Below are positions 3,490-17,837 of a stretch of DNA of 32,244 nucleotides, piece by piece (positions within the stretch are counted from its first letter, which is position 1; each line of letters starts with the position of its first letter). Under the pieces are notes generated by a model. The model saw only the letters and a program-made list of their open reading frames with translations, was not told the DNA's origin and made no database searches. The position numbers and the translations under genes were made by a program. Location: the NCBI GenBank assembly GCA_016871675.1, contig VHCN01000036.1, positions 1 through 32,244 on the forward strand, written 5' to 3'. The DNA comes from Verrucomicrobiota bacterium. GTDB lineage: Bacteria > Verrucomicrobiota > Verrucomicrobiia > Limisphaerales > VHCN01.

Positions 3490-4215
3490 ATGGCGCGCCA
3501 CAGCAAATGGTCGAAGGTGCGGACCTTCAAGGGGGCGATCGACGCGAAGCGCGGGCGGATGTTCTCGAAGCTTGCGCGCGAGTTGATGGTCGCATCGAAA
3601 CTGGGCGGCGCGGATCCGGCGTTGAATCCCCGGCTGCGGATGGTGTTGATGCGCTGCCGCGCGGCGAGCATGCCGAACGAAAACGTGGAACGCGCGATCA
3701 AGAAAGGCGCCGGTGACACGGCTGGAATCTTGTTTGAAGACCTGACCTACGAAATCTTCGCGCCGCATGGCGTGGCCCTGCTCGTGGAGCTCACGACGGA
3801 CAACCGAAACCGCACCGCGGCCGAAATCCGGAGCCTTGTGACGAAGGCCGGCGGCAAGATCGCCGACGCGGGCTCGGTCTCGCGGCTCTTCCGCAAGGTG
3901 GGCGAGCTCGTCCTTGCGCGGGACGCGGCGGCCGAGGACGAGTTGATGGCCATCGCGCTGGAGGCGGGCGCGGAGGATTTCGTGGCGGGCGCGGACGGGT
4001 TCGGGATCGTCACGGACCCGGCGCACTTCGAGGCGGTGCACAAGGCTGTCGAGTCGCGAAGGCTCAAGTGCGACGCGGCGCAGGTCATCGCCAAACCGGC
4101 GATCACCGTGCCGGTGGGCGGGCCCGCCGCGGAGGACGTGGCCGCGCTCATCGAGGCGATCGAGGATCACGATGACGTGCAGGAAGTGTGGCACAACGCG
4201 GACTTTTCGGAGTGA
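3490..4215 (+). CDS. yebC: YebC/PmpR-family protein (DNA-binding regulator or translation factor)
   Basis: 241 residues, the usual length. The start MARHSKWSKVRTFKGAIDAK followed by RGRMFSKLAREL matches the family signature (M-GHSKW-N---K---DAKRGK-F-KL-REI). Further conserved blocks are NPRLRMVLMRCRAASMPNEN, ERAIKKGAG, YEIFAPHGVALLVE, TDNRNRTAAEIRS and the acidic C-terminal end DHDDVQEVWHNADF. YebC/PmpR proteins are cytosolic; some members repress transcription, and others have been shown to relieve ribosome stalling at proline-rich motifs. Which role applies here cannot be seen from sequence. The TGACATG junction with the upstream hydrolase indicates translational coupling. Unlike the common arrangement, ruvC/ruvA/ruvB are not next to it. 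Confidence 0.95.
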   Translation: MARHSKWSKVRTFKGAIDAKRGRMFSKLARELMVASKLGGADPALNPRLRMVLMRCRAASMPNENVERAIKKGAGDTAGILFEDLTYEIFAPHGVALLVELTTDNRNRTAAEIRSLVTKAGGKIADAGSVSRLFRKVGELVLARDAAAEDELMAIALEAGAEDFVAGADGFGIVTDPAHFEAVHKAVESRRLKCDAAQVIAKPAITVPVGGPAAEDVAALIEAIEDHDDVQEVWHNADFSE

Positions 4216-4268: not shown

Positions 4269-7034
4269 GTGCAAACCGAGCCCAAGCCATCCCTGCCGCA
4301 GCGCCTGCTCGGGCGGTTGTCGGACGCGGTGTATTCGTATCCGCGGCTCTTCTTCTATCCGCAGGTGGTGCTGTTCCTCGTGTGCGTGCTCTACACGGTG
4401 GTGAAGCTGGACTTCACGACGAACCGCGACGACCTCGTCGGGGCGGACAAGCGGTATCACCGGAATTTCCTCACGTTCAAGAGGGAGTTTCCGCCGCAAG
4501 ACGACCTTGTGGTGCTGGTCGAGAGCAACGACCCGGCGCGCAACCGGCGGTTTGTCGAGCGTCTCGGCGCGCGCCTCGAGGCCGAGACGAACCTCTTCAC
4601 CGACGTATTCTTCAAGGGCGACTTGCGGATGATGGGCTCGAAGGCGCTGCTCTTCGTGAAGGAGGAGGACCTGCGCGAACTGCACGGACAGTTGAAGGAG
4701 TTCCGCCCGTTCCTCGAAACGTTCACGCAAGCCACGAATCTCGCGTCGCTGTTTCAGTTGGTGAACGCGCAGTTCCGAACCGCGAAGCGCGAGGAAAGCG
4801 CCGAGAACAAGTCGCTCGTGAAGGCGCTGCCGGCGCTGGAGCGGCTGGTGTCCGAGGCGAGTGATTGCCTCGCGCGGCCGGGCACGCCGGGGTCGCCCGG
4901 CATCGCGTCGTTTTTCGGAGGCGGCGAGGAAGCCGAGCAGGAGCAATACATCACCTACGCGAACGGGCGCATTTACCTCGTCACGGCGCACGCGCGGACC
5001 GCGGACTTGAACGCGGACGCGGTGGAGCGATTGGGAGAGCTGGTCCGCCGCACGTCCGTGGAGGTGCCGGGCTTGAACGTGGGAATCACCGGCGAGCCCG
5101 TGCTCGAAGTGGACGAGATGAAGCAATCGCAAGAGGACACGATGGTCGCGTCGATAGTGTCGCTCGTGATCGTCGCACTGATCTTCATCTACGGATACCA
5201 GCAGACCGGACGGCCGTTGAAGGCGACGCTTTGCCTCGTGGTGGGGCTTGGCTACACCATGGGTTACACGACGCTCGTGGTCGGGCACCTGAACATCCTC
5301 ACCATCACATTTGCGCCGATGTTGATCGGGCTGGCGGTGGACTTCGGCGTGCACCTCGTCACGCGGTATGAGGAGGAGTTGCGGCACGGGCGCACGGAGC
5401 GCGAGGCGTTGCACAAGGCGATGGTCCATACGGGCCTTGGGATTTTCACGGGCTGTTTAACGACGGCCGGAGCGTTCTTCGCCATGGCGATCACGAATTT
5501 CCGAGGCATCCAGGAAATGGGAGTGATCGCCGGCGGCGGCCTGCTCATCTGCCTCGTGCCGATGCTCACGCTGCTGCCGGTGCTGCTGTTGCGCGGCCGG
5601 CAAAACGTGATCGACCACGCGGCGCCGCCGGCCGAGGCCAAACGGGCGCGCATCGAGCGCGCGTGGCTTGAGCGGCCGGGTCTGGTGCTTGTGGTGACCG
5701 TGGTCTTGTGCGGCTTGTCCTGGTCGCGCTTCGGCCGGGTGCCGTTCGATTACAACCTGCTTCACATGCAGGCCGACGGCCTGCCCGCGGTGGTGTATGA
5801 GAAGAAGCTTCTGCACTCGGCCTCGAACTCGCTGCTCTACAGCGCCGTGATTGCGACGAATCTCCAGCAGGCCGTGGCGCTGGAGGCGAAGCTCACCAAC
5901 CTGACCACGGTCGGAATGGTCCGCTCAATGGGGCAGTTCCTCGCGGAGAATCCCGCGCCCAAGCTGCAGCTCATCCGTGACTTGAAAGCGGAACTCGCGA
6001 CGATGCGCTTCCCGCGGTTGGACACCAACCCGGTGAATGTCCCCGAATTGAGCCAGATTCTCTACTCGCTGCAGGGCTACCTCGGGCTTGCGGAAGAGGA
6101 AGTTCGCAAGGAGAACGATCTTGTTCTCGAGCAGAACCTGCGGAAGCTGCGGGACGCGATCCAGGTGCTGCGCACGCAAATCCTGAACGCCCACCGGGGC
6201 AGCGCGCCGGAAAAGCTCGCGGCATTTCAACAGGCGTTGCTGGAGGATTTGCACGAAACGCTGGAGACGATGCGGGGACAGGACGCCACTGCCGGTCTTC
6301 GGGTCGAAGACTTGCCCGAGCCGCTTCGGAACCGGTTCATCGGCCGATCGGGTCATTTGCTTCTGCAAGTCTATCCCTGCGTGGATGTCTGGCAACGCGA
6401 AGGCCAGCGAGCTTTCGTGGACGAGCTCCGTCGCACGCTGGATCCCGAGGACTCCGGGCATCCCATCATCACCGGAACTCCCGTGCAGTTGCTCGAATAT
6501 ACCACGCTGTTGAAGCGCAGTTACGAGGAGGCCGCGCTGTATGCACTCGCGGCGATTGCCCTGATTGTCTTTGCCCACTTCCGGAGTGTCGGGTGCGTCC
6601 TGCTTGCGCTCCTGCCAGTCGCCATTGGCGCGATTTGGATGGTCGGCTTCATGGGGTGGGTCGGCATCCCGTTCAACCCCGCCAATATCATGACACTGCC
6701 GCTCGTCATCGGCATTGGCGTATCGAACGGCATCCACATCCTCAACCGCTTCGCTGAGGAACAAAACCCAGGCATTCTCGCCAAGTCCACCGGCAAGGCC
6801 GTCCTCGTCTCCGGGCTCACGACAGTCGCCGGGTTCGGCAGCCTCATACTCGCGAAGCACCAAGGCATCAGCAGCCTCGGCTGCATCATGGCCGTGGGCA
6901 CGACCACTTGCATGGTCGCTGCATTGACGTTTCTGCCCGCGCTCCTCAACCTTCTCGTGCGGCGGGGTTGGAAAATAAAAGGACCCAGCGGAGATAATGC
7001 ACTACCCCCGCTGGGTCGGGAGGAACCGAGGTAA
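4269..7034 (+). CDS. MMPL/RND-family transporter, HpnN-like
   Basis: 921 residues from a GTG start with no obvious Shine-Dalgarno sequence. It has the two-half MMPL layout. There is one membrane segment at about 27-47, a periplasmic domain to about 290, then about five membrane helices (291-460). The second half repeats this: one helix near 475, a periplasmic domain rich in Leu/Glu helices, and five helices from about 755 to 900. The fourth-helix motif GLAVDFGVH of half one keeps Asp358, a residue position used for proton relay in RND/MMPL proteins. The equivalent in half two is GIGVSNGIH, with Ser819 in that place. HpnN-type proteins move hopanoids or related lipids to the outer membrane. 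No hopanoid synthesis gene is in the window, so the cargo is unknown. The last 40 bases of coding contain a perfect inverted repeat (6982-7017). Confidence 0.88.
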   Translation: MQTEPKPSLPQRLLGRLSDAVYSYPRLFFYPQVVLFLVCVLYTVVKLDFTTNRDDLVGADKRYHRNFLTFKREFPPQDDLVVLVESNDPARNRRFVERLGARLEAETNLFTDVFFKGDLRMMGSKALLFVKEEDLRELHGQLKEFRPFLETFTQATNLASLFQLVNAQFRTAKREESAENKSLVKALPALERLVSEASDCLARPGTPGSPGIASFFGGGEEAEQEQYITYANGRIYLVTAHARTADLNADAVERLGELVRRTSVEVPGLNVGITGEPVLEVDEMKQSQEDTMVASIVSLVIVALIFIYGYQQTGRPLKATLCLVVGLGYTMGYTTLVVGHLNILTITFAPMLIGLAVDFGVHLVTRYEEELRHGRTEREALHKAMVHTGLGIFTGCLTTAGAFFAMAITNFRGIQEMGVIAGGGLLICLVPMLTLLPVLLLRGRQNVIDHAAPPAEAKRARIERAWLERPGLVLVVTVVLCGLSWSRFGRVPFDYNLLHMQADGLPAVVYEKKLLHSASNSLLYSAVIATNLQQAVALEAKLTNLTTVGMVRSMGQFLAENPAPKLQLIRDLKAELATMRFPRLDTNPVNVPELSQILYSLQGYLGLAEEEVRKENDLVLEQNLRKLRDAIQVLRTQILNAHRGSAPEKLAAFQQALLEDLHETLETMRGQDATAGLRVEDLPEPLRNRFIGRSGHLLLQVYPCVDVWQREGQRAFVDELRRTLDPEDSGHPIITGTPVQLLEYTTLLKRSYEEAALYALAAIALIVFAHFRSVGCVLLALLPVAIGAIWMVGFMGWVGIPFNPANIMTLPLVIGIGVSNGIHILNRFAEEQNPGILAKSTGKAVLVSGLTTVAGFGSLILAKHQGISSLGCIMAVGTTTCMVAALTFLPALLNLLVRRGWKIKGPSGDNALPPLGREEPR
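6982..7017 (+). terminator. Perfect 10-bp inverted repeat at the 3' end of the MMPL gene
   Basis: GACCCAGCGG (6982-6991) is exactly reverse-complemented by CCGCTGGGTC (7008-7017) across a 16-base loop. It lies inside the last codons of the MMPL gene, and the gene's stop follows at 7032-7034. A second, weaker hairpin, GAGGT-AAGA-ACCTC (7028-7041), straddles the stop codon. Neither is followed by a T-run, so this is not a classical intrinsic terminator. It could be a Rho-assisted terminator or an mRNA 3'-end protector. Confidence 0.4.
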
Positions 7035-7296: not shown

Positions 7297-8772
7297 GTGA
7301 CCCCTTCCGTCGCGCGCCGGCCAGCCTTCAGTCAGTGGTGGCTCGTCATCCTTGGGTTTGCACTTCACCCCGCTCCATCGAGCCGGGGCGCGGACTCCTT
7401 CGTCGCGGGGCCCGCTCATTCCCGGTTCGAATTGACGCTGGAAGACGGCAACCGGACGGAGTTGCTCGGACCGCTTTATTACCGACAGCAAGCCGGGACG
7501 CGTTCGAGCACCGCGTTTCCGCCGTTTTTCTCCCTGTTTGACGATCCGGATGTCGCAGCGACCGAGTTCGACATCCTTTACCCGCTTCTGAGTTGGGATC
7601 GGTTTGGCGACGAGTATCGGTTCCACCTTTTCCAACTGCTCAGTTTTTCGGGCGGCAGCAGTCAAGACGACCTGATCACGCGGCGATTCTCGCTCTTCCC
7701 CTTCTACTTCCAACAGCGATCGGCAAACTCCAACGACAACTACACGGCGTTGCTCCCATTCTACGGCCACTTGAAGGGGCGCCTGTTGCGCGACGAGATT
7801 CGCTTTGTGCTGTTCCCGCTCTGGTCGCAGACACGCAAGCGCGACGTCGTCACCGACAACTACCTCTATCCATTCTTCCACATGCGCAGCGGGGACCGGA
7901 TGAGCGGGTGGCAATGCTGGCCGCTGGTCGGGCGCGAGCACCGCGACGCTTTCATTCGCACCAACAGCCTCGGCATCGAGGAAACCGTGGGCGGGCATGA
8001 CAGCTTCTTCGCACTCTGGCCGTTCTTTCTCCGGCAAGACAGTGGCATCGGCACCACGAATGACATTCACGAGCGCGCGTTCCTTCCTGTGTTCACTTCC
8101 TATCGCTCACCCGCGCGCGACTCGACCACGTATCTGTGGCCGCTCTACACCGTCACGGACGACCGGGAGAAACGCTACCGCGAATGGGGCGCGCCGTGGC
8201 CGCTCATCGTCTTCGCGCGCGGCGAGGGAAAAACCGCCAACCGCATCTGGCCGTTCTTCGGCCACGCGCACAATGACGTGCAAACGAGCGAATTCATCCT
8301 GTGGCCGCTTTGGAAATACAACCGCGCCTCGTCCGACCCGCTTGATTGGGAGCGCACACGCATCCTGTTCTTCCTCTACTCCGACCTCGTCGAACGGAAC
8401 ACCGCCACCGGCAACGCGCTGCGGCGCGTGGACCTCTGGCCGTTCTTCACATGGCGGCGCGACCCCGACGGGCACGAGCGCCTGCAAGTGCTCGCACCCA
8501 TCGAACCGATCCTCCCGAACAACAAGAGCGTCGAACGCAACTGGTCCCACGTGTGGTCCATCTGGCGCGAAGAACGCAACGCCAAGACCGGCGCCACCAG
8601 CCAGTCGTTGCTGTGGAACCTCTGGCGCCGCGAGTCGAGCGCCGACATCAAAAAGGCGTCTTTCCTTTTCGGCCTCGTCCAGTATCAATCGTCCGCGGAC
8701 GGCGCGCGATGGCGTTGGCTCTGGCTTCCTGCGAAAGACTCGAGAGCGCCGTCTGCTCCCGCAAACAAGTGA
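7297..8772 (+). CDS. Exported protein of Trp-Pro/aromatic repeats, family not recognised
   Basis: 491 residues from a GTG start. Residues 1-32 form a signal peptide (FSQWWLVILGFALHP core, then SRGADSF). The mature part is a run of about a dozen short units in which a hydrophobic aromatic core (LWPFF, LFPLW, LYPFF, LLPFY, IWPFF, LWPLY, LWPLW) alternates with polar charged stretches of 15-30 residues. Examples start near 131 (FSLFPFYFQQRS), 169, 188, 237, 278, 315, 333 and 378. The alternation fits amphipathic strands with polar turns, so an outer-membrane beta-barrel or a periplasmic beta structure is plausible. However, the C terminus (LPAKDSRAPSAPANK) lacks the terminal aromatic residue typical of barrels. 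Its position about 150 bases before mlaE suggests a link to phospholipid transport. I assign no function. Confidence 0.75.
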   Translation: MTPSVARRPAFSQWWLVILGFALHPAPSSRGADSFVAGPAHSRFELTLEDGNRTELLGPLYYRQQAGTRSSTAFPPFFSLFDDPDVAATEFDILYPLLSWDRFGDEYRFHLFQLLSFSGGSSQDDLITRRFSLFPFYFQQRSANSNDNYTALLPFYGHLKGRLLRDEIRFVLFPLWSQTRKRDVVTDNYLYPFFHMRSGDRMSGWQCWPLVGREHRDAFIRTNSLGIEETVGGHDSFFALWPFFLRQDSGIGTTNDIHERAFLPVFTSYRSPARDSTTYLWPLYTVTDDREKRYREWGAPWPLIVFARGEGKTANRIWPFFGHAHNDVQTSEFILWPLWKYNRASSDPLDWERTRILFFLYSDLVERNTATGNALRRVDLWPFFTWRRDPDGHERLQVLAPIEPILPNNKSVERNWSHVWSIWREERNAKTGATSQSLLWNLWRRESSADIKKASFLFGLVQYQSSADGARWRWLWLPAKDSRAPSAPANK

Positions 8773-8804: not shown

Positions 8805-8880
8805 GTGATGCGTGGTGCGTGGTGCGTGACGACTGCGCACAGCCGCGCCTTCCCTCCACGCACCACGCACCGCCCATCAC
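8805..8880. repeat. Long near-perfect inverted repeat made of 7-base units, between the repeat protein and mlaE
   Basis: The left arm (8805-8828) contains the tandem unit TGGTGCG about three times. The right arm (8857-8880) is its reverse complement over 24 positions, with one true mismatch and one G-U pair, enclosing a 28-base loop. RNA from this region would fold into a very stable hairpin. There is no T-run, so it is not a standard terminator; it may be a dispersed intergenic palindrome or an mRNA processing/stability element separating the upstream gene from mlaEFD. Confidence 0.75.
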
Positions 8881-8928: not shown

Positions 8929-9672
8929 ATGTTCCGCGACATCGGCCAACTTGTCGTCCTGTTCTGGAAAACGCTCGGCGCGCTGTCGTTCGCGTGGCGG
9001 CATCGGCGCAAGGTCATGGAACAACTCCACGAAATCGGCAACGCCAGCCTGCTCATGGCGTGCATTCTCGCGTTCTTCATCGGCGGCGTGCTTGCGCTCG
9101 AAATGGGCCCCGTGATGGTCGAGCGTGGGTTGTCGAACTACATCGGCGGCATCGTCGGACTCAGCCTCTGCCGCGAGCTCATCCCGGTGATGATGGCCGT
9201 GCTCATCGCCGGGCGCATCGGCTCGGCGATGGCCGCGGAAATCGGCTCCATGGCCGTGTATCAGGAGATCGATGCGCTGCGCACGATGAACATCAACCCG
9301 ATCCACTACCTCGTTCTGCCGAGGTTCCTCGCGATCTGCGTCGCGTTGCCCGCACTCACCGTGCTCGCGGACCTCGTGGGATGGTTCGGCGGCGCGATCG
9401 TCTGCGCGACCAACCACCAGATCGTGCTGAGCCAGCAGTCCTACTTCGCAAACCTCCGGGAAACGGTCGGCTTCGATGACCTGATGCACGGCCTCATCAA
9501 GAGCTTCGCCTTCGCCGTGACCATCGTCACCGTCTCGTGCCATCAAGGCCTGCACACCATCGGCGGCCCGCGCGGCATCGGCCGGTCCGTCACCAAGGCC
9601 GTCGTCAACTCCATCATCCTCATCCTCATCCTCGACTACTTCGTCACCAGCCTGCTGCTGCAACTGGAGTAA
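8929..9672 (+). CDS. mlaE: MlaE-family ABC transporter permease (phospholipid transport)
   Basis: 247 residues, close to the usual MlaE length. It begins with the amphipathic segment MFRDIGQLVVLFWKTLGALS. The characteristic permease core follows: LMACILAFFIGGVLALE, then GLSLCRELIPVMMAVLIAGR, then IGSAMAAEIGSMAVYQEIDA and LRTMNINPIHYLVLPRFLA. The ELxPV...AGRxGSAxAAEIG...EIDAL signature is near-complete. It forms the inner-membrane channel of a lipid-moving ABC complex with MlaF and the MCE protein MlaD encoded next. Its stop overlaps the mlaF start (TAATG). No mlaA, mlaB or mlaC homologue is seen in the window, so the system differs from the E. coli set. Direction of lipid movement cannot be told from sequence. 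Confidence 0.95.
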   Translation: MFRDIGQLVVLFWKTLGALSFAWRHRRKVMEQLHEIGNASLLMACILAFFIGGVLALEMGPVMVERGLSNYIGGIVGLSLCRELIPVMMAVLIAGRIGSAMAAEIGSMAVYQEIDALRTMNINPIHYLVLPRFLAICVALPALTVLADLVGWFGGAIVCATNHQIVLSQQSYFANLRETVGFDDLMHGLIKSFAFAVTIVTVSCHQGLHTIGGPRGIGRSVTKAVVNSIILILILDYFVTSLLLQLE

Positions 9673-10427
9673 TGCCCACCCCCGCAAACAACCAGACCGT
9701 CCGCGTCGAAGTCCGGGGCTTGCGCAAGAGCTTCGGCGACCATGAAGTGCTGCGCGGCGTGAGCTTCGCCGTCGAGCGCGGCGAGATTTTCGTGCTGATG
9801 GGCCCGAGCGGCAGCGGCAAAAGCGTCCTGCTCAAACACATCATCGGCCTCGAACCGCCGGACGAAGGCGACATCCTCATCGACGGCCGGCCCATCCGCG
9901 ACGAGGGCGTGACGGACTCCTTCCGCATGGCCATGGTCTTTCAATCCGGCGCGCTGCTCAACTCGCTCACCGTGGGCGAAAACGTCGGCCTCTATCTCGC
10001 CGAGCACGAGCTCAAGCCCCCCGCCGAGATCGAGCGCATCGTCGCCGAGAAGCTCGATGTCGTCGGCCTCAAGGGCGCCGCGCACAAGATGCCCGGCGAG
10101 CTTTCCGGAGGCATGAAGAAGCGCGTGGCCATCGCCCGCGCGCTCGTCATCGAACCGCAACTCATCCTCTACGATGAGCCCACGAGCGAGCTCGACCCGC
10201 TCATCTCCATCACCATCGGACAGGAAATCCTCGACCTGCGCGACCGCACCCACGCCACGAGCATTGTCGTCTCACACGACCGCGACCTAGCCTTCGGCAT
10301 CGCCGACCGCATCGCGATCATTGCCGAGGGTGAGATCATCCTCACCGGAAAGCCCGAGGAAATCCGCCGCAGCACGCACCCGCTCGTTCAGCGATTCATC
10401 ACCGCCGACTTCAAACCCAAGCACTGA
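9672..10427 (+). CDS. mlaF: MlaF-family ABC transporter ATP-binding protein
   Basis: 251 residues from the ATG at 9672, which overlaps the mlaE stop; a longer in-frame reading to 9537 only shadows mlaE. All ABC ATPase motifs are present: Walker A GPSGSGKS at 44-51, Q-loop MVFQSGALLNSLTVGEN, signature LSGGM at 144-148 followed by KKRVAIARAL, Walker B LILYDEP near 164-170, D-loop SELDP and switch histidine VVSHD. The MVFQSGAL segment after a short Q-loop is typical of the MlaF/Mkl group. It supplies ATP hydrolysis to the MlaE permease on the cytosolic face. Followed after 57 bases by the MCE gene on the same strand. Confidence 0.95.
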   Translation: MPTPANNQTVRVEVRGLRKSFGDHEVLRGVSFAVERGEIFVLMGPSGSGKSVLLKHIIGLEPPDEGDILIDGRPIRDEGVTDSFRMAMVFQSGALLNSLTVGENVGLYLAEHELKPPAEIERIVAEKLDVVGLKGAAHKMPGELSGGMKKRVAIARALVIEPQLILYDEPTSELDPLISITIGQEILDLRDRTHATSIVVSHDRDLAFGIADRIAIIAEGEIILTGKPEEIRRSTHPLVQRFITADFKPKH

Positions 10428-10484: not shown

Positions 10485-11624
10485 ATGAAAACCTCCCTCG
10501 AAACCCGCCTCGGCATGTTCGTCGCCCTCACCGTCGTCGCCGCCGCCATCGTCCTCGAACTGGCCGGTGGCACGGACCTCTTCCGTCCCGGCAAGCGGCT
10601 TCACGCCCTCTTCAACACCGTGATGGAACTCAAGGCCGGCGACCCCGTGAAACTCTCCGGCGTGCAGATCGGCAAGGTCGAGAAGATCGGCATCGAGACC
10701 GTGCAGGAGGAGCAGCGCCGCGTCACCAAGGTCAAGGTCACCATGAAGATCAGACGCGACGCCGCGGTGCCCACCGATTCGCGAGCCACCATCCGTTTCG
10801 CCGGGTTGCTCGGGCAAAACTTCATCGGCATCAACGTCGGATCCGCCACCACCACGTTCGAGGACGGCGCGACCATCGACATCCTTGAGCAGACCGACCT
10901 CGGCACACTCATGACCAAACTCGACGAAGTCGCGAGTGGAATCCAGAACGTCGCCAAGAGCTTCAGCGGCGAGTCCATCCAGAACATCCTCGGCCCCTTC
11001 ACCGACTTCATGAAGGCCAACCAGACCAAGCTCACCGCCACCATCGCCAACATGCAGATCATCTCGCAGGACATCACCGAGGGCAAGGGCACCGTCGGCA
11101 AGCTCATCAAGGACGACTCGCTTCACAAGGCCGCGCTCGACACCGTCAAGACCCTCAACGACACCGGCGCCGAAGTGCAGAAGTCCCTGACGGACGTGAA
11201 GGGCATGATGGACGACGCCAAGAAACTCATGGCCAACGCCAACGCCGCCGCGACCAACGTCAACTCCCTGTTCGACGAGGCGAAACTGGCCATCAAGGAC
11301 GCCCGTTCCGCGCTCACGAACGCCCACACCGCCATCGCCGACGGCCGCACCATCATCGCCGACATCAACGCCGGCAAGGGCAACCTCGGCCTGCTCATCA
11401 AGCAGGACGCCCTTTACAAGGACGGTTCCGCCTCGCTCACAAACCTCCGGGAGATCCTCGAGAAGATCAACAAGGGCTACGGCACCGCGGGCAAGTTCGT
11501 GAACGACGAGAGCCTCTTCAAGAACGCGCGCATGACGCTCCAGAAACTCGACAAGGCCACCGAGGGCTTGGAGGACCAGGGGCCTTTGAGCGTCCTTGGC
11601 ATGGTTGTCGGCCGGCTGTTCTAA
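10485..11624 (+). CDS. mlaD: MlaD-type MCE-domain protein with a repeated C-terminal extension
   Basis: 379 residues, twice the length of E. coli MlaD. One N-terminal membrane helix (about 8-28) anchors it in the inner membrane. The MCE domain spans about 37-118, with the typical LFNTVMELKAGDPVKLSGVQ and IGKVEKIGI, then RFAGLLGQNFIGINVG. The long C-terminal part is mostly helical and contains three copies of a motif: GKGTVGKLIKDDSLHKA at 200-216, GKGNLGLLIKQDALYKD at 297-313 and GYGTAGKFVNDESLFKN at 331-347. The G-G-T-G-K-L-DD-SLY motif is common in long bacterial MCE proteins. Family knowledge says MCE proteins form hexameric rings that carry lipids across the periplasm; the helices probably extend a tunnel or needle. 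It completes an MlaE-MlaF-MlaD operon. Confidence 0.93.
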   Translation: MKTSLETRLGMFVALTVVAAAIVLELAGGTDLFRPGKRLHALFNTVMELKAGDPVKLSGVQIGKVEKIGIETVQEEQRRVTKVKVTMKIRRDAAVPTDSRATIRFAGLLGQNFIGINVGSATTTFEDGATIDILEQTDLGTLMTKLDEVASGIQNVAKSFSGESIQNILGPFTDFMKANQTKLTATIANMQIISQDITEGKGTVGKLIKDDSLHKAALDTVKTLNDTGAEVQKSLTDVKGMMDDAKKLMANANAAATNVNSLFDEAKLAIKDARSALTNAHTAIADGRTIIADINAGKGNLGLLIKQDALYKDGSASLTNLREILEKINKGYGTAGKFVNDESLFKNARMTLQKLDKATEGLEDQGPLSVLGMVVGRLF

Positions 11625-12871: not shown

Positions 12872-12960
12872 GCCGGCGTAGTTCTTGACAGGCAAAGTAT
12901 TTTTCCCGGTGTTCCCGCCGGGCAGAAGCTGGCCGGGCGCAACGGGATGGAGTATTGGAC

Positions 12961-13920
12961 ATGATCAAAGTCAAAGAGCTGAGCAAGTCATTCGGGCCGA
13001 AACTGGCGGTCAACAACCTCTCGTTCACCGTCGAGCGCGGCGAGGTGCTGGGCTTCCTCGGGCCAAACGGAGCCGGAAAGTCCACCACTATGCGGATGAT
13101 CACCGGCTACCTGCCGCCGTCCGCGGGCCGCATCTCCGTGGGAGGGCACGACATTGTGGAGAATCCCGTCGAGGCCAAGAAACTCATCGGCTACCTTCCC
13201 GAGAATGCCCCGGCCTACAGCGACATGACGGTGCACGGCTTTCTCGGGTTCGCCGCGGAGATTCGCGGGTTGCGCGGCGCGGCCAGGGAGAACGCCATCC
13301 AGCGCGTGGCGGAGATGTGCTTCCTCAAGAACGTGCTGCATCAAAGCGTGGACACGCTCTCGAAGGGCTACCGCCACCGCACTTGCTTCGCTCAGTCCAT
13401 CATTCACGACCCGGAAATCCTGATCATGGACGAGCCCACCGACGGCCTCGACCCAAACCAGAAGCACGAGGTGCGGTTGCTTATCCGCCGGATGGGCGAG
13501 AAAAAGGCGATCATCTTCTCCACGCACATCCTCGAGGAAGTCGAGGCCGTGTGCTCCCGGGCCATCATCATCGACCGCGGCAGCATCGTCGCGAACGGCA
13601 CGCCCGCCGAGCTCAAGGCGAAGTCCGAGAACGCGGGCTGCGTGACCTTGCGCGTGACCGGCGCCGCGTCCGGCACCGTGACCCAAAAGCTCGGCGCCAT
13701 TCCTGCCGCGAAGAAGATTTCCGTGGTGAAAGAGGAGCACGGCACCGTGACCGTGCGGGTGCAAGCGAAACCGAATTTTGCGAACGGCGACCTTTCCCGC
13801 GCCGTGGCCGAAGCCGCCGCCGGATGGCGTATCGAGGAACTCCACACCGAGGAAGGCCGTCTCGACGAGGTCTTCCGCAGCATCACCCAGTCCGACACCG
13901 TGCAGGAGAAGAAGAAATGA
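12961..13920 (+). CDS. ABC transporter ATP-binding protein, GldA-like
   Basis: 319 residues from the ATG at 12961, with GGAG about ten bases upstream; the TTG six bases earlier is a less likely start. Motifs: Walker A GPNGAGKS at 34-41, signature LSKGY at 133-137 (instead of LSGGQ, as is usual in the GldA/NatA-like group) followed by RHRTCFAQSIIHDP, Walker B ILIMDEP at 153-159, D-loop DGLDPNQ and switch FSTHILEEVE. A C-terminal domain of about 90 residues follows the nucleotide-binding domain, as in ABC-2-type exporters. It powers the permease encoded immediately downstream, whose ATG overlaps this stop by four bases (ATGA). In Bacteroidota the equivalent set GldA-GldF-GldG is needed for gliding; here the function is unknown. 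Confidence 0.92.
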   Translation: MIKVKELSKSFGPKLAVNNLSFTVERGEVLGFLGPNGAGKSTTMRMITGYLPPSAGRISVGGHDIVENPVEAKKLIGYLPENAPAYSDMTVHGFLGFAAEIRGLRGAARENAIQRVAEMCFLKNVLHQSVDTLSKGYRHRTCFAQSIIHDPEILIMDEPTDGLDPNQKHEVRLLIRRMGEKKAIIFSTHILEEVEAVCSRAIIIDRGSIVANGTPAELKAKSENAGCVTLRVTGAASGTVTQKLGAIPAAKKISVVKEEHGTVTVRVQAKPNFANGDLSRAVAEAAAGWRIEELHTEEGRLDEVFRSITQSDTVQEKKK

Positions 13921-14669
13921 ACAACTCGCTGAGCCACATCCGCACCATCGCCAAGCGCGAGCTGGGCGCGTATTTCGCGTCGCCCGTCGCCTACGTCTTC
14001 ATCGTGATCTTCCTGCTGCTGGCGGGGTTCTTCACGTTCATGATCGGCTTCTTCTTCGAGCGGGGCGAGGCGTCGCTGCGCGACTCGTTCTTTGTCTGGC
14101 ACCCATGGCTGTATTTGTTCCTCGTGCCCGCGGTGGGCATGCGACTCTGGTCGGAGGAACGCCGGCAAGGCACGCTCGAACTGCTCATGACCATGCCCAT
14201 CACGCCGTGGCAGGCCATCGTCGGGAAGTTCATCGCGTCGTGGGCGTTTCTCGGCCTCGCGCTGGCGCTGACTTTCCCCGTGGTGCTGACGGTGCGGCAC
14301 CTCGGCACGCCCGACATGGGCGTGATCGTGGGCAGCTACTTCGGGAGCTTCCTGCTGGCGGGCGCGTATCTCGCGGTGACGAGTTTCACCTCCGCGCTCA
14401 CGCGCAACCAGGTCATCAGCTTCATCATGTCGCTCGTCGTCTGCTTCTTCCTCCTGCTCGCAGGCTGGCCGCCCGTGACAAATTTCATCACCAAGGTCAT
14501 GAGCGGCTCGACCGGGCTCGTGGACTTCGTCTCGGCGTTCAGCGTGATGACCCACTTCGAGGGCTTCCAGAAGGGCGTGGTGGACCTGCGCGACCTTGTC
14601 TTCTTCCTGTCGGTGATTGGTTTCTCGCTGTTCGGCACGGCCGTGGTGCTGCGCGGGCTGCGGGCGTGA
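13917..14669 (+). CDS. ABC-2-type permease, GldF-like
   Basis: 250 residues from the ATG at 13917, overlapping the ATPase stop. Cytosolic start MNNSLSHIRTIAKRELGAYF, then six hydrophobic segments: about 20-42 (VAYVFIVIFLLLAGFFTFMI), 60-77 (WLYLFLVPAVGM), 100-125, 140-160, 165-185 and 225-245. The motif MRLWSEERRQGTLELLMTMP between helices 2 and 3 is the conserved coupling region of ABC-2 permeases (E-R--GTLE-L---P). It forms the membrane channel partner of the ATPase. The next gene, which encodes a GldG-like protein, starts ten bases after the stop. The cargo cannot be determined from sequence. Confidence 0.93.
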   Translation: MNNSLSHIRTIAKRELGAYFASPVAYVFIVIFLLLAGFFTFMIGFFFERGEASLRDSFFVWHPWLYLFLVPAVGMRLWSEERRQGTLELLMTMPITPWQAIVGKFIASWAFLGLALALTFPVVLTVRHLGTPDMGVIVGSYFGSFLLAGAYLAVTSFTSALTRNQVISFIMSLVVCFFLLLAGWPPVTNFITKVMSGSTGLVDFVSAFSVMTHFEGFQKGVVDLRDLVFFLSVIGFSLFGTAVVLRGLRA

Positions 14670-14679
14670 TTTTCCCAAC

Positions 14680-16614
14680 ATGAACAAAAAACTCGAGTCC
14701 CTCCTGTTCTCCGCCGTCGGCTTGGGCGCGATGTTTGTCATCCTCGTCGGCGCCAACGTCATCGTCTCCACCGCCAAGCTCCGCAAGGACCTCACCGCCG
14801 AGAAGCTCTACACACTCTCCGACGGCACGCGCAAAATCCTGGGCCGCCTCGACACGCCGGTGAAGGTCCGCTTCTACTGCACGCAGGGCGAGAACGCGAT
14901 GCCCGTCCCCCTCAAGACCTTCGCCGCGCGCGTCGAGGACATCCTCTCCGAGTATCGCTCCATCTCGAAGGGCAAGTTGACGATCGAAAAGCTCGACCCG
15001 CAGCCCGACTCGGACGCGGAAGACTCGGCGAACCTTGACGGCGTCGAGGGACAGCCCATCAGCGCGAACGAGAAAATCTACCTCGGCGTCGCCATCCGCT
15101 GTCTCGACCAGGTCGTCGCCATCCCGTTCCTCTCGCCCGAACGCGAAAAGCTCCTCGAATACGACCTCTCCCGCGCCATCGCGCGCGTCGTGAACACCAC
15201 CAAGCCCGTCATCGGCGTGATGACCGCGCTGCCCATGTTCGGCCAGCCGATGAACCCGATGATGATGCGGATGGGCCAGATGCGCGGCACCGAGCCGTGG
15301 CTCTTCATCAGCGAGCTCAAGCGCGACTTCGACGTGAAGCAAGTGCCGCTCACGGCCGACAAGATTGACGACGACGTGAAGGTGCTGCTGGTCGTCCACC
15401 CGCGCGACATCAGCGAGGCGGCGCAGTTCGCGGTCGACCAGTTCGTGCTGCGCGGCGGCAAACTGATCGCGTTCGTGGACCCGGTGAACGTGATTGACGC
15501 GCAGCAAAGCGGCGGCAACCCGATGATGGGCGGGGGCCCGCCGAGCGGTTCCACGCTCGACAAGCTCTTCAAGGCATGGGGCGTCGAGTTCGACAAATCC
15601 AAGGTCGTGGCCGACCCGAACTTCCTCACCACGATGCGCGGACGCGGCGGCCGCCCCGAGAAGAACCCGTGCTGGCTTTCGCTGGACCGCACCGCCGTGG
15701 CCGAGGATCCCGCGACATTCCAGATCGACAGCCTGTTGCTCGCGATGCCCGGCGCGTTCACCGGCACGCCCGCCGAAGGCCTGCAACAAAAAGTCCTGCT
15801 CCACGCCACGAAGGACTCGGCGACCGCCGAGGCGTTCCTCGCGCAGATGTCCGGCGAAGCCGTGATGAAGGACCTCAAGCCCTCCGGCAAGGAGCACACG
15901 CTCGCAGTGCGGCTCAGCGGCAAGTTCAAGACGGCCTTCCCCGACGGCAAGCCCGGCGAGAAAAAGGACGACCACGACCACGCAAAGGACGACAAGGACG
16001 GCAAGAAAGACGACGCCAAGAAAAAGGATGAGAAAAAGCCCGACGACTCGCTGAAGGCGTCGAAAGACGAGAACTTCGTCATCCTCGTCGCGGACTCCGA
16101 CATCCTGTATCACGAGTTCTCGATGCGCGTGCTCGAGGGCTTCGGCGTGATGATGCCGTTCAACGCCAACCTCTCCCTCGCACAGAACCTCGTCGAGCAG
16201 CTCAGCGGCGACACCAGCCTGATCAACGCGCGCACGCGCGCGACCATGAGCCGGCCGTTCACGCTCGTGAAGAAGATGCAGGCCGAGGCCGAGGCCAGCT
16301 ATCGCGACAAGATCGAGGGCCTGGAGAAGTCGCGCCAGGAAGCCGAGCGCAAGATCAACGAACTGATGCAGAACAAGGACAAGACGCAACGCTTCGTGCT
16401 CTCGCCCGACCAGCAGAAGGAAATCGAGAAGTTCAAGAAGGAGCGCACCGACACCGCGCAAGAGCTCAAGAAAATCCGCAAGCAGCTCCGCCAGGACGTC
16501 GACTCGCTCGAGAACCGCCTCAAGTGGATCAACATCGCCGGCATGCCCTTCCTCGTGACCATCGGAGGCATCGGCCTGGCACTCGTGAAACGCAAACGCA
16601 CCGCAGCCAAATGA
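14680..16614 (+). CDS. GldG-like ABC-associated protein (Gldg domain, membrane-anchored)
   Basis: 644 residues from the ATG at 14680. A membrane helix at about 10-30 is followed by the family motif DLTAEKLYTLSDGTRKIL, then PVKVRFYCTQ and an extended extracytoplasmic region with GVMTALPMFG, VLLVVHPRDISE and GGKLIAFVDPVN. This is the layout of GldG and the related auxiliary subunit of ABC-2 systems. A Lys/Asp-rich low-complexity insert lies at about 426-457. Later come ENFVILVADSDILYHEFSMR, a charged coiled coil at about 545-610 and a final membrane helix (INIAGMPFLVTIGGIGLALV) with a basic tail. It presumably sits in the inner membrane with its bulk outside and works with the ATPase and permease. 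The ATG of the DUF4340 gene overlaps its stop. Confidence 0.9.
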   Translation: MNKKLESLLFSAVGLGAMFVILVGANVIVSTAKLRKDLTAEKLYTLSDGTRKILGRLDTPVKVRFYCTQGENAMPVPLKTFAARVEDILSEYRSISKGKLTIEKLDPQPDSDAEDSANLDGVEGQPISANEKIYLGVAIRCLDQVVAIPFLSPEREKLLEYDLSRAIARVVNTTKPVIGVMTALPMFGQPMNPMMMRMGQMRGTEPWLFISELKRDFDVKQVPLTADKIDDDVKVLLVVHPRDISEAAQFAVDQFVLRGGKLIAFVDPVNVIDAQQSGGNPMMGGGPPSGSTLDKLFKAWGVEFDKSKVVADPNFLTTMRGRGGRPEKNPCWLSLDRTAVAEDPATFQIDSLLLAMPGAFTGTPAEGLQQKVLLHATKDSATAEAFLAQMSGEAVMKDLKPSGKEHTLAVRLSGKFKTAFPDGKPGEKKDDHDHAKDDKDGKKDDAKKKDEKKPDDSLKASKDENFVILVADSDILYHEFSMRVLEGFGVMMPFNANLSLAQNLVEQLSGDTSLINARTRATMSRPFTLVKKMQAEAEASYRDKIEGLEKSRQEAERKINELMQNKDKTQRFVLSPDQQKEIEKFKKERTDTAQELKKIRKQLRQDVDSLENRLKWINIAGMPFLVTIGGIGLALVKRKRTAAK

Positions 16615-17837
16615 ACCGAAAGCAGTTCACCCTCCTCATCGCGCTCGTCATCGTCGTCGGCGGCCTCGGGCTGATGATGAACGCCAAAAAGCAGGCCACG
16701 TGGCAACGCGGCTCCACCGGTGCCGGCGGCAAACTCCTCGCCGGGTTCGACTACAACGCCGTCGCGTCGCTGACCATCAAGAGCGCCTCCAACGAAGTCA
16801 CCCTCGCCAAGCGCGAGGAAGGCTGGCGCGTCAAGGAGCGCGGCGAGTATCCCGCCAACTTCAGCACGCTCGCGGATTTCCTCCGCAAGGCCGCCGACCT
16901 CAAGATCGTGCAGTCCGAGCCCATCGGCGCCTCGCAGTTCGAGCGCATGGAACTCAACCAGCCCGGCAAGGGCGCGGGCGCGGGCACGCTCGTCGAGTTC
17001 CGCGACAAGGACGGCAAGCCCCTGCGCACGCTCGTGCTCGGCAAGAAACAGATGAAAAAGTCCGAGGGCGGCTCCCCGTTCGGTGGCGGCGAGTGGCCCG
17101 TCGGCCGCTGGGTCATGGACCTCAAGGACACGGCGAACGTGAGCCTGGTTTCCGACGCGCTCTCCGACATCGAGCCCAACGCCTCGCACTGGCTGGACAA
17201 GGAATTCTTCAAGGTCGAGAAGGTCCGCAGCGTGGCCGTGGCCCACACGAACCCGACCAACTCGTGGAAGCTCACCCGCGATGCCGACGCCGGCGAATGG
17301 AAACTCGCCGACGCCAAGGCCGGCGAACAGCCGCTCGACCCGGCGAAGGCGAACGCCATCGGCAACCCGTTCAGCTTCCCGTCCTTCGCCGACGTCGTCG
17401 CCGCCGATGCCAAGCCCGCCGACACCGGTCTCGACCAGCCCACCGTCGTCACCATCGAGACCGCGGACAAACTCACCTACACGATGAAAGTCGGCGCGAA
17501 ATCCGGCGAGGACAACCTCCACCTCGCGATGACCGTGAAAGCCGACCTCGCGGCGAAACGCGAGCCCGCCAAGGACGAGAAGCCCGAGGACAAGGACCGG
17601 CTCGACAAGGAATTCGCCGAGAGCCAGAAGAAGCTCCAGGAAAAGCTCGCCGCCGAGAAGAAGTTCGAGCGCTACGCCTTCCTCGTGAGCAAATGGACCG
17701 TGGACGCCGTCCTCAAGAACCGCGCCGAGTTGCTCGCCGAGAAGAAAGAGGAGCCGAAGCCCGAGGTGAAATCAGACGAGCCTTTGCCCGGAACCGCCGC
17801 ACCCAAGGCGGAATCACCGAAGGCAACACCCAAGTAG
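16611..17837 (+). CDS. DUF4340 domain protein
   Basis: 408 residues from the ATG at 16611, overlapping the GldG-like stop by four bases (ATGA). One N-terminal helix (MNRKQFTLLIALVIVVGGLG) anchors it. Typical DUF4340 features follow: FDYNAVASLTIKSASNEVTL, GWRVKERGEYPANFSTLADF and LRKAADLKIVQSEPIG, then the repeat-like second half beginning WKLTRDADAGEWKLAD. The C terminus is a Lys/Glu/Pro-rich tail of about 90 residues. DUF4340 proteins are nearly always encoded directly after GldG-like genes in PVC and other Gram-negative bacteria and are thought to belong to the same ABC complex. No biochemical function is known to me. It ends the cluster; 105 non-coding bases follow. Confidence 0.9.
   Translation: MNRKQFTLLIALVIVVGGLGLMMNAKKQATWQRGSTGAGGKLLAGFDYNAVASLTIKSASNEVTLAKREEGWRVKERGEYPANFSTLADFLRKAADLKIVQSEPIGASQFERMELNQPGKGAGAGTLVEFRDKDGKPLRTLVLGKKQMKKSEGGSPFGGGEWPVGRWVMDLKDTANVSLVSDALSDIEPNASHWLDKEFFKVEKVRSVAVAHTNPTNSWKLTRDADAGEWKLADAKAGEQPLDPAKANAIGNPFSFPSFADVVAADAKPADTGLDQPTVVTIETADKLTYTMKVGAKSGEDNLHLAMTVKADLAAKREPAKDEKPEDKDRLDKEFAESQKKLQEKLAAEKKFERYAFLVSKWTVDAVLKNRAELLAEKKEEPKPEVKSDEPLPGTAAPKAESPKATPK

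Follow-up and report, generated by a model that had tools for sequence, protein, structure and literature searches.

The window analysed here is a stretch of 32,244 nucleotides from the genome of a Verrucomicrobiota bacterium of the order Limisphaerales. On its forward strand, positions 7297-8772 encode a protein of 491 amino acids (GTG start at 7297, stop codon ending at 8772) whose core motifs are Trp/Tyr/Phe-Pro, and which we refer to as WPFF. Directly downstream on the same strand are genes encoding an MlaE permease (8929-9672; PF02405, E = 1.2e-71; TIGR00056 above cut-off), an MlaF ATPase (9672-10427; PF00005, E = 1.2e-33; best lipid-type model PRK11831 MlaF) and a long MlaD of 379 amino acids (10485-11624; PF02470, E = 6.7e-18). 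The ATG of mlaF at 9672 overlaps the stop codon of mlaE. Upstream, also on the forward strand, we identified a gene encoding an HpnN-like RND/MMPL exporter (4269-7034; PF03176, E = 6e-48). This protein scores best against HpnN (model TIGR03480), but its 568 bits fall short of the 752 bits set as cut-off for that family. The same genome encodes a squalene-hopene cyclase homolog, and thus a hopanoid cargo is possible, judging from gene content.

Other features flank these genes. Beyond the RND gene on its upstream side, many loci of the order have a YebC-family gene as the next conserved neighbour (3490-4215 in the window). The gap separating WPFF from mlaE contains an imperfect inverted repeat (8805-8880) with 24-nt arms, GTGATGCGTGGTGCGTGGTGCGTG and CACGCACCACGCACCGCCCATCAC, 28 nt apart. 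Its unit occurs only here within the window; a regulatory hairpin and a mobile repeat are both conceivable. Further downstream (12955-17837), a Gld-type ABC transporter set (ATPase, permease, GldG-like and DUF4340-like proteins) was recognized from sequence only.

The N-terminus of WPFF (MTPSVARRPAFSQWWLVILGFALHPAPSSRGA) is, by inspection, a plausible export signal. The likely signal peptide covers approximately residues 1-32 (7297-7392, forward strand; RR...WWLVILGFAL...SSRGA) with a putative cleavage site, and AlphaFold2 models a helix at residues 11-23. It is followed by a hairpin-repeat region (residues 41-474; 7417-8718, forward strand) delimited from the AlphaFold2 model, the proline profile and co-variation. 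The mature protein contains 12 copies of a loose xWPxx-type pattern (x-aromatic-P-hydrophobic-x), compared to a mean of 0.43 and a maximum of 4 in 20,000 composition shuffles, and 9 copies of a strict WP-type pattern, compared to 0.18 in shuffles. The repeats are far beyond chance. Hydrophobic clusters recur with a period of 19-20 residues (autocorrelation 0.49 at 20 and 0.46 at 38). A residue profile centred on 15 prolines has two hydrophobic positions before the proline (conserved at 99%) and two after it, amounting to only about five hydrophobic residues per WP turn, and the flanks on either side are mainly polar and charged. When very distant members of the family are aligned, 25 columns are invariant, the majority of them WP-turn prolines. 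The protein ends in a polar, Pro/Ala-rich tail that has no terminal aromatic beta-signal. By inspection, WPFF of the window has no lipobox, and a lipobox is possible in 4 of 80 orthologs. The first-pass annotation had described an exported Trp-Pro repeat protein lying directly upstream of mlaE-mlaF-mlaD on the same strand, and both the protein (with its open reading frame, its repeats and a signal peptide that is plausible by inspection) and its position are confirmed here.

That annotation had also called the protein unrecognised, and this holds after profile searches. Neither WPFF nor 29 members from the order and 10 distant members could be related to any family in Pfam, NCBIfam or the PDB sequences. 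Within Pfam, the MORN sequence repeat was not matched by the 29 order and 10 distant members, and an AsmA/TamB-type domain was matched neither by WPFF itself nor by either set of relatives. The single weak hit among PDB sequences, to PkwA (E = 0.0095), was judged to be due to chance. Literature searches found no paper on the family, no homolog was found in plasmid records, and the loci scanned for this feature contain no other WP-motif-rich open reading frames outside the family.

WPFF is present as a single copy in the window's genome and occurs in 88 of the 97 genomes of the order. Most of these orthologs share 40-63% identity along almost their entire length and nearly all are free of internal stops, so that WPFF is a real gene. 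Of 387 genomes taken from across the phylum, other classes included, a profile search retrieved matches from 162, some of the weakest being partial. GTDB records with WPFF relatives are named Limisphaerales, Pedosphaera or Verrucomicrobia subdivision 3, names that put the window in Verrucomicrobiota; the distribution searches were carried out within the phylum, and the patterns used for the GTDB scan are specific to close relatives. Close relatives are also encoded in five records (L103, L106, L112, L114 and L172) titled Klebsiella pneumoniae, Akkermansia muciniphila or Proteobacteria, which are probably mislabelled metagenome bins. By these sequence comparisons, WPFF represents a large unnamed family that is widespread in Verrucomicrobiota and missing from the domain databases searched.

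An AlphaFold2 model of WPFF, computed with 80 orthologs, has a mean pLDDT of 91.3 and a pTM of 0.79. It consists of about 44 strands of 4-8 residues (approximately 20 Trp-Pro hairpins) arranged as an antiparallel meander, in which (L)WP(F) turns, which are hydrophobic, line one edge and alternate with polar turns on the other. The only helices are the one in the signal peptide and one near residues 410-420. If fully extended, the ribbon would be roughly 200 Angstrom long, as calculated from strand number and spacing. Mean-field couplings from 121 sequences, an analysis that is partly dependent on AlphaFold given that the alignments overlap, place 36 of the top 60 short-range pairs on modelled turn centres (14.6 expected). 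These are divided between hydrophobic turns (18; 6.6 expected) and polar turns (18; 8.0 expected). Because the couplings are centred on both kinds of turn, both look like antiparallel hairpins. We considered LWPF as a proline kink within one long transmembrane strand and rejected it, since the couplings centred on hydrophobic turns and the modelled strand ends favour hairpins.

Comparison of the model with solved structures gave a best VIA-align Z of 8.9 over 148 residues at an rmsd of 5.6 A, which is in the range of chance similarity. The nearest structures are the single-layer sheets of the CPAP G-box, MORN1, junctophilin and OspA (Z 7-9, rmsd 5-8 A). Foldseek against the PDB reached TM-scores of only 0.1-0.2, with diffuse matches spread over propellers, teneurin shells and OspA; no fold was assigned, and families missing from these matches are not counted as evidence either. 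The G-box of CPAP/SAS-4 (TCP10 domain), MORN-repeat proteins and OspA have short antiparallel strands in one layer, an arrangement that the WPFF model may resemble, but they have no sequence relation to WPFF and their Z-scores are within the chance range. A hydrophobic edge anchored by prolines is not known from the CPAP/SAS-4 G-box, MORN or OspA sheets.

An all-beta, secreted protein with about 20 hairpins could be an integral outer-membrane beta-barrel, that is, a TGD4- or LptD-like channel that takes lipid from MlaD, and parts of the model do align with porin walls (OmpT, OmpU and BtuB fragments). These porin matches are partial, however, with Z of about 8 or less, a level that the tool treats as uninformative. 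Strands typical of a transmembrane barrel (at least about 9 residues long, with side chains facing the lipid in alternation) are absent from the model. With 4-8 residues, the strands of WPFF are too short to cross a bilayer; its hydrophobicity is confined to the WP turns of one edge rather than forming an alternating lipid-facing belt, and the polar tail offers no beta-signal. We therefore consider a barrel unlikely. Given strands of insufficient length for a membrane barrel and a family that has no general lipoprotein signal, WPFF is likelier to be a periplasmic or peripheral protein than an integral membrane protein. The earlier proposal of a beta-rich envelope protein is supported by the model, an unusual all-beta meander rather than an ordinary globular domain; of the two locations it had offered, outer-membrane or periplasmic, the evidence leans towards a periplasmic or peripheral one and away from integration into the membrane.

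The gene order WPFF-mlaE-mlaF-mlaD, on one strand, was found in 36 of 40 loci of the window's order, and mlaE is the next gene downstream of WPFF in 63 of 76 GTDB loci of the order, counts that (like all neighbourhood counts here) are based on draft genomes. Four exceptional genomes of the order were examined, and each encodes a close MlaE ortholog (66-75%) elsewhere, accompanied by MlaF and MlaD if the contig extends far enough. In the rest of the phylum, 19 of 20 loci have the same order and the 20th stops at a contig edge (19/19 testable). Synteny within an order could be mere descent, and YebC is likewise conserved upstream in many loci, which would be expected if the neighbourhood were an inherited gene order without functional meaning. 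Against this, the WPFF-mlaEFD order persists between very divergent sequences from different classes, and within the order WPFF is lost along with its MlaE (see below). We thus hold inheritance without function to be very improbable indeed. The suggestion that WPFF is a partner of the Mla system is supported by this survey, in which WPFF and mlaEFD remain neighbours across the phylum.

The exporter upstream had been overlooked in the first-pass annotation; the tie to Mla that it proposed was borne out, and within the order the RND gene is equally tied to WPFF. An RND gene is located within 3.8 kb upstream of WPFF in 57 of the 61 order loci that have sufficient upstream DNA. Thirteen of the 76 loci have WPFF without an adjacent mlaE, and in 12 of these 13 WPFF still follows the RND gene, which could be its primary partner there. 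WPFF might then be mainly a partner of the HpnN-like RND, with the link to mlaEFD being secondary. Outside the order, however, no RND gene was found near WPFF in 20 fetched loci of 8-14 kb, whereas mlaEFD is present in all 19 testable ones, and we regard this explanation as quite improbable.

The window's genome is 97% complete and has no match for MlaA (PF04333; controls positive) or for MlaC (PF05494; the control search recovers E. coli and Caulobacter). The absence is thus stronger than first claimed, extending from the window to the whole genome. In Verrucomicrobiota that have MlaA, the usual operon is mlaE-mlaF-mlaD-mlaC-mlaA. The two kinds of loci differ in the length of MlaD, which is 296-464 amino acids in WPFF loci (n = 117) and 147-183 amino acids in MlaC/MlaA operons (n = 13), with no overlap. 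The AlphaFold2 model of the window's MlaD (mean pLDDT 76, the C-terminal part being of low confidence) has a TM helix, an MCE domain and an all-helical extension that includes one helix of about 85 residues. A C-terminal beta-barrel is not predicted, as the model has no strands past residue 133 and helices over residues 139-378. This agrees with a published account in which MlaD proteins of the PVC group are all barrel-less (PMC10665443).

WPFF and MlaA co-occur in 19 of the 387 genomes of the phylum, compared to 63.6 expected, an exclusion that is confounded by phylogeny. Within one well-sampled family (f66), 26 genomes have WPFF, 10 have MlaA and 1 has both. In the window's own order the exclusion is less strict: an MlaA match is found in 21 of 94 genomes, nearly all inside open frames of 630-815 amino acids. 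MlaA (PF04333) within open frames of 630-880 amino acids occurs in many Verrucomicrobiota, including about 20 genomes of the order. One such frame from elsewhere in the phylum (L214:5621-7513) was examined and has a weak alpha/beta-hydrolase match after the MlaA domain; the long frames are possibly an MlaA-hydrolase fusion family.

Presence and absence within the order link WPFF to a particular MlaE. All five WPFF-negative order genomes that are at least 90% complete (G001, G056, G060, G074 and G093) also do not have the WPFF-type MlaE; the best MlaE left in them is at most 36% identical, compared to 54-72% in seven positives. Two order genomes of 57% completeness encode a WPFF-type MlaE without a visible WPFF. 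Long-MlaD systems without WPFF also exist, namely a clpC-linked type and systems on two contigs (C12 and C28) of the window's genome, and so a long MlaD alone does not require WPFF. The C12 (L216:387-3111) and C28 (L217:4720-7853) sets are MlaE-MlaF-MlaD sets of other subtypes, with long MCE-type proteins of 389 and 490 amino acids and no WP-repeat neighbour. In both gene order and presence or absence, the association of WPFF with this MlaEFD subtype is well supported.

In other Verrucomicrobiota, RND genes more distant from that of the window lie beside MlaC and MlaA. MlaA-MlaC-RND gene sets are located at L204:6284-10201 and L213:5947-9852, and an MlaA-RND pair in L208. This suggests that the periplasmic and outer-membrane partners used by RND pumps are of the Mla type. 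At the locus described here the RND is paired with WPFF instead of MlaC/MlaA; thus, WPFF occupies the place of MlaA/MlaC in both contexts.

Our preferred interpretation, which we consider probable with some reservation, is that WPFF is the dedicated extracytoplasmic partner of a distinct MCE lipid transporter of Verrucomicrobiota, the long-MlaD type, and does the job that MlaC and MlaA do in the short-MlaD type. MlaEFD would be seated in the inner membrane, and a hexameric long MlaD would form a helical needle into the periplasm, without an outer-membrane barrel of its own. WPFF would be located at or near the far end of the needle. In the window's order it probably also serves the adjacent HpnN-like RND, so that a single receiver could work with two pumps, perhaps with hopanoid or another lipid passing via the RND and phospholipid via MlaEFD. 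We infer an outer-membrane location and lipid contact for WPFF; the least certain part is that its Trp-Pro edge contacts membrane lipid.

The same hydrophobic edge could instead bury against the long MlaD helices. WPFF would then act on the MlaEFD needle as a structural, assembly or regulatory factor (e.g., a clamp or chaperone round the MlaD helices) that has no lipid contact and whose WP edge packs on protein. A turn with about five hydrophobic residues and polar or charged strands on either side suits protein packing equally with membrane contact. Such a needle factor is nevertheless difficult to match with the pairing of WPFF and the RND where mlaEFD is elsewhere, and in operons of the other type it is MlaC/MlaA that hold the corresponding positions, which points to a role on the lipid path. 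We find it rather unlikely, and retain the dedicated partner of the transporter as the preferred role.

The system resembles the E. coli Mla system (MlaA, MlaBCDEF) in having MlaE, MlaF and an MCE-domain MlaD in one operon, with intermembrane lipid traffic implied. Unlike E. coli, the window's genome has neither MlaC nor MlaA, whose place is taken by a secreted repeat protein unrelated to them, and its MlaD is twice as long, with a helical extension. The minimal trans-envelope MlaEFD of Veillonella parvula (PMC10665443) is similar in the absence of MlaA/MlaC and in its long MlaD with a helical region. However, the V. parvula MlaD has a C-terminal outer-membrane barrel, whereas the MlaD of the window is modelled without one and WPFF is an extra protein of the operon. 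The nearest analogy in role is E. coli PqiABC (PMC10897342), in which PqiC is an operon-encoded extracytoplasmic partner for the periplasm-spanning MCE protein PqiB. PqiC is an outer-membrane lipoprotein, whereas WPFF has no Pfam match, no general lipoprotein signal and a different predicted fold.

A more specific proposal, which we put forward tentatively and consider doubtful, is that WPFF is a new lipid-conducting element: a free-standing beta-meander whose row of Trp-Pro turns lies at the outer membrane as a hydrophobic track or crown, common to an ABC (MlaEFD) and an RND lipid pump. The architecture as predicted is unusual, and the protein is conserved, operon-encoded and uncharacterised. 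Across bacteria the majority of MlaD proteins are long, and those of the PVC group all lack the barrel, for which as yet unidentified proteins have been raised (PMC10665443). WPFF provides a concrete gene for the question of how these barrel-less PVC MlaD systems reach the outer membrane. If it does conduct lipid, WPFF would supply the outer-membrane end that barrel-less long-MlaD systems of Verrucomicrobiota are missing, and it is a good candidate for a missing part of lipid movement between the two membranes.
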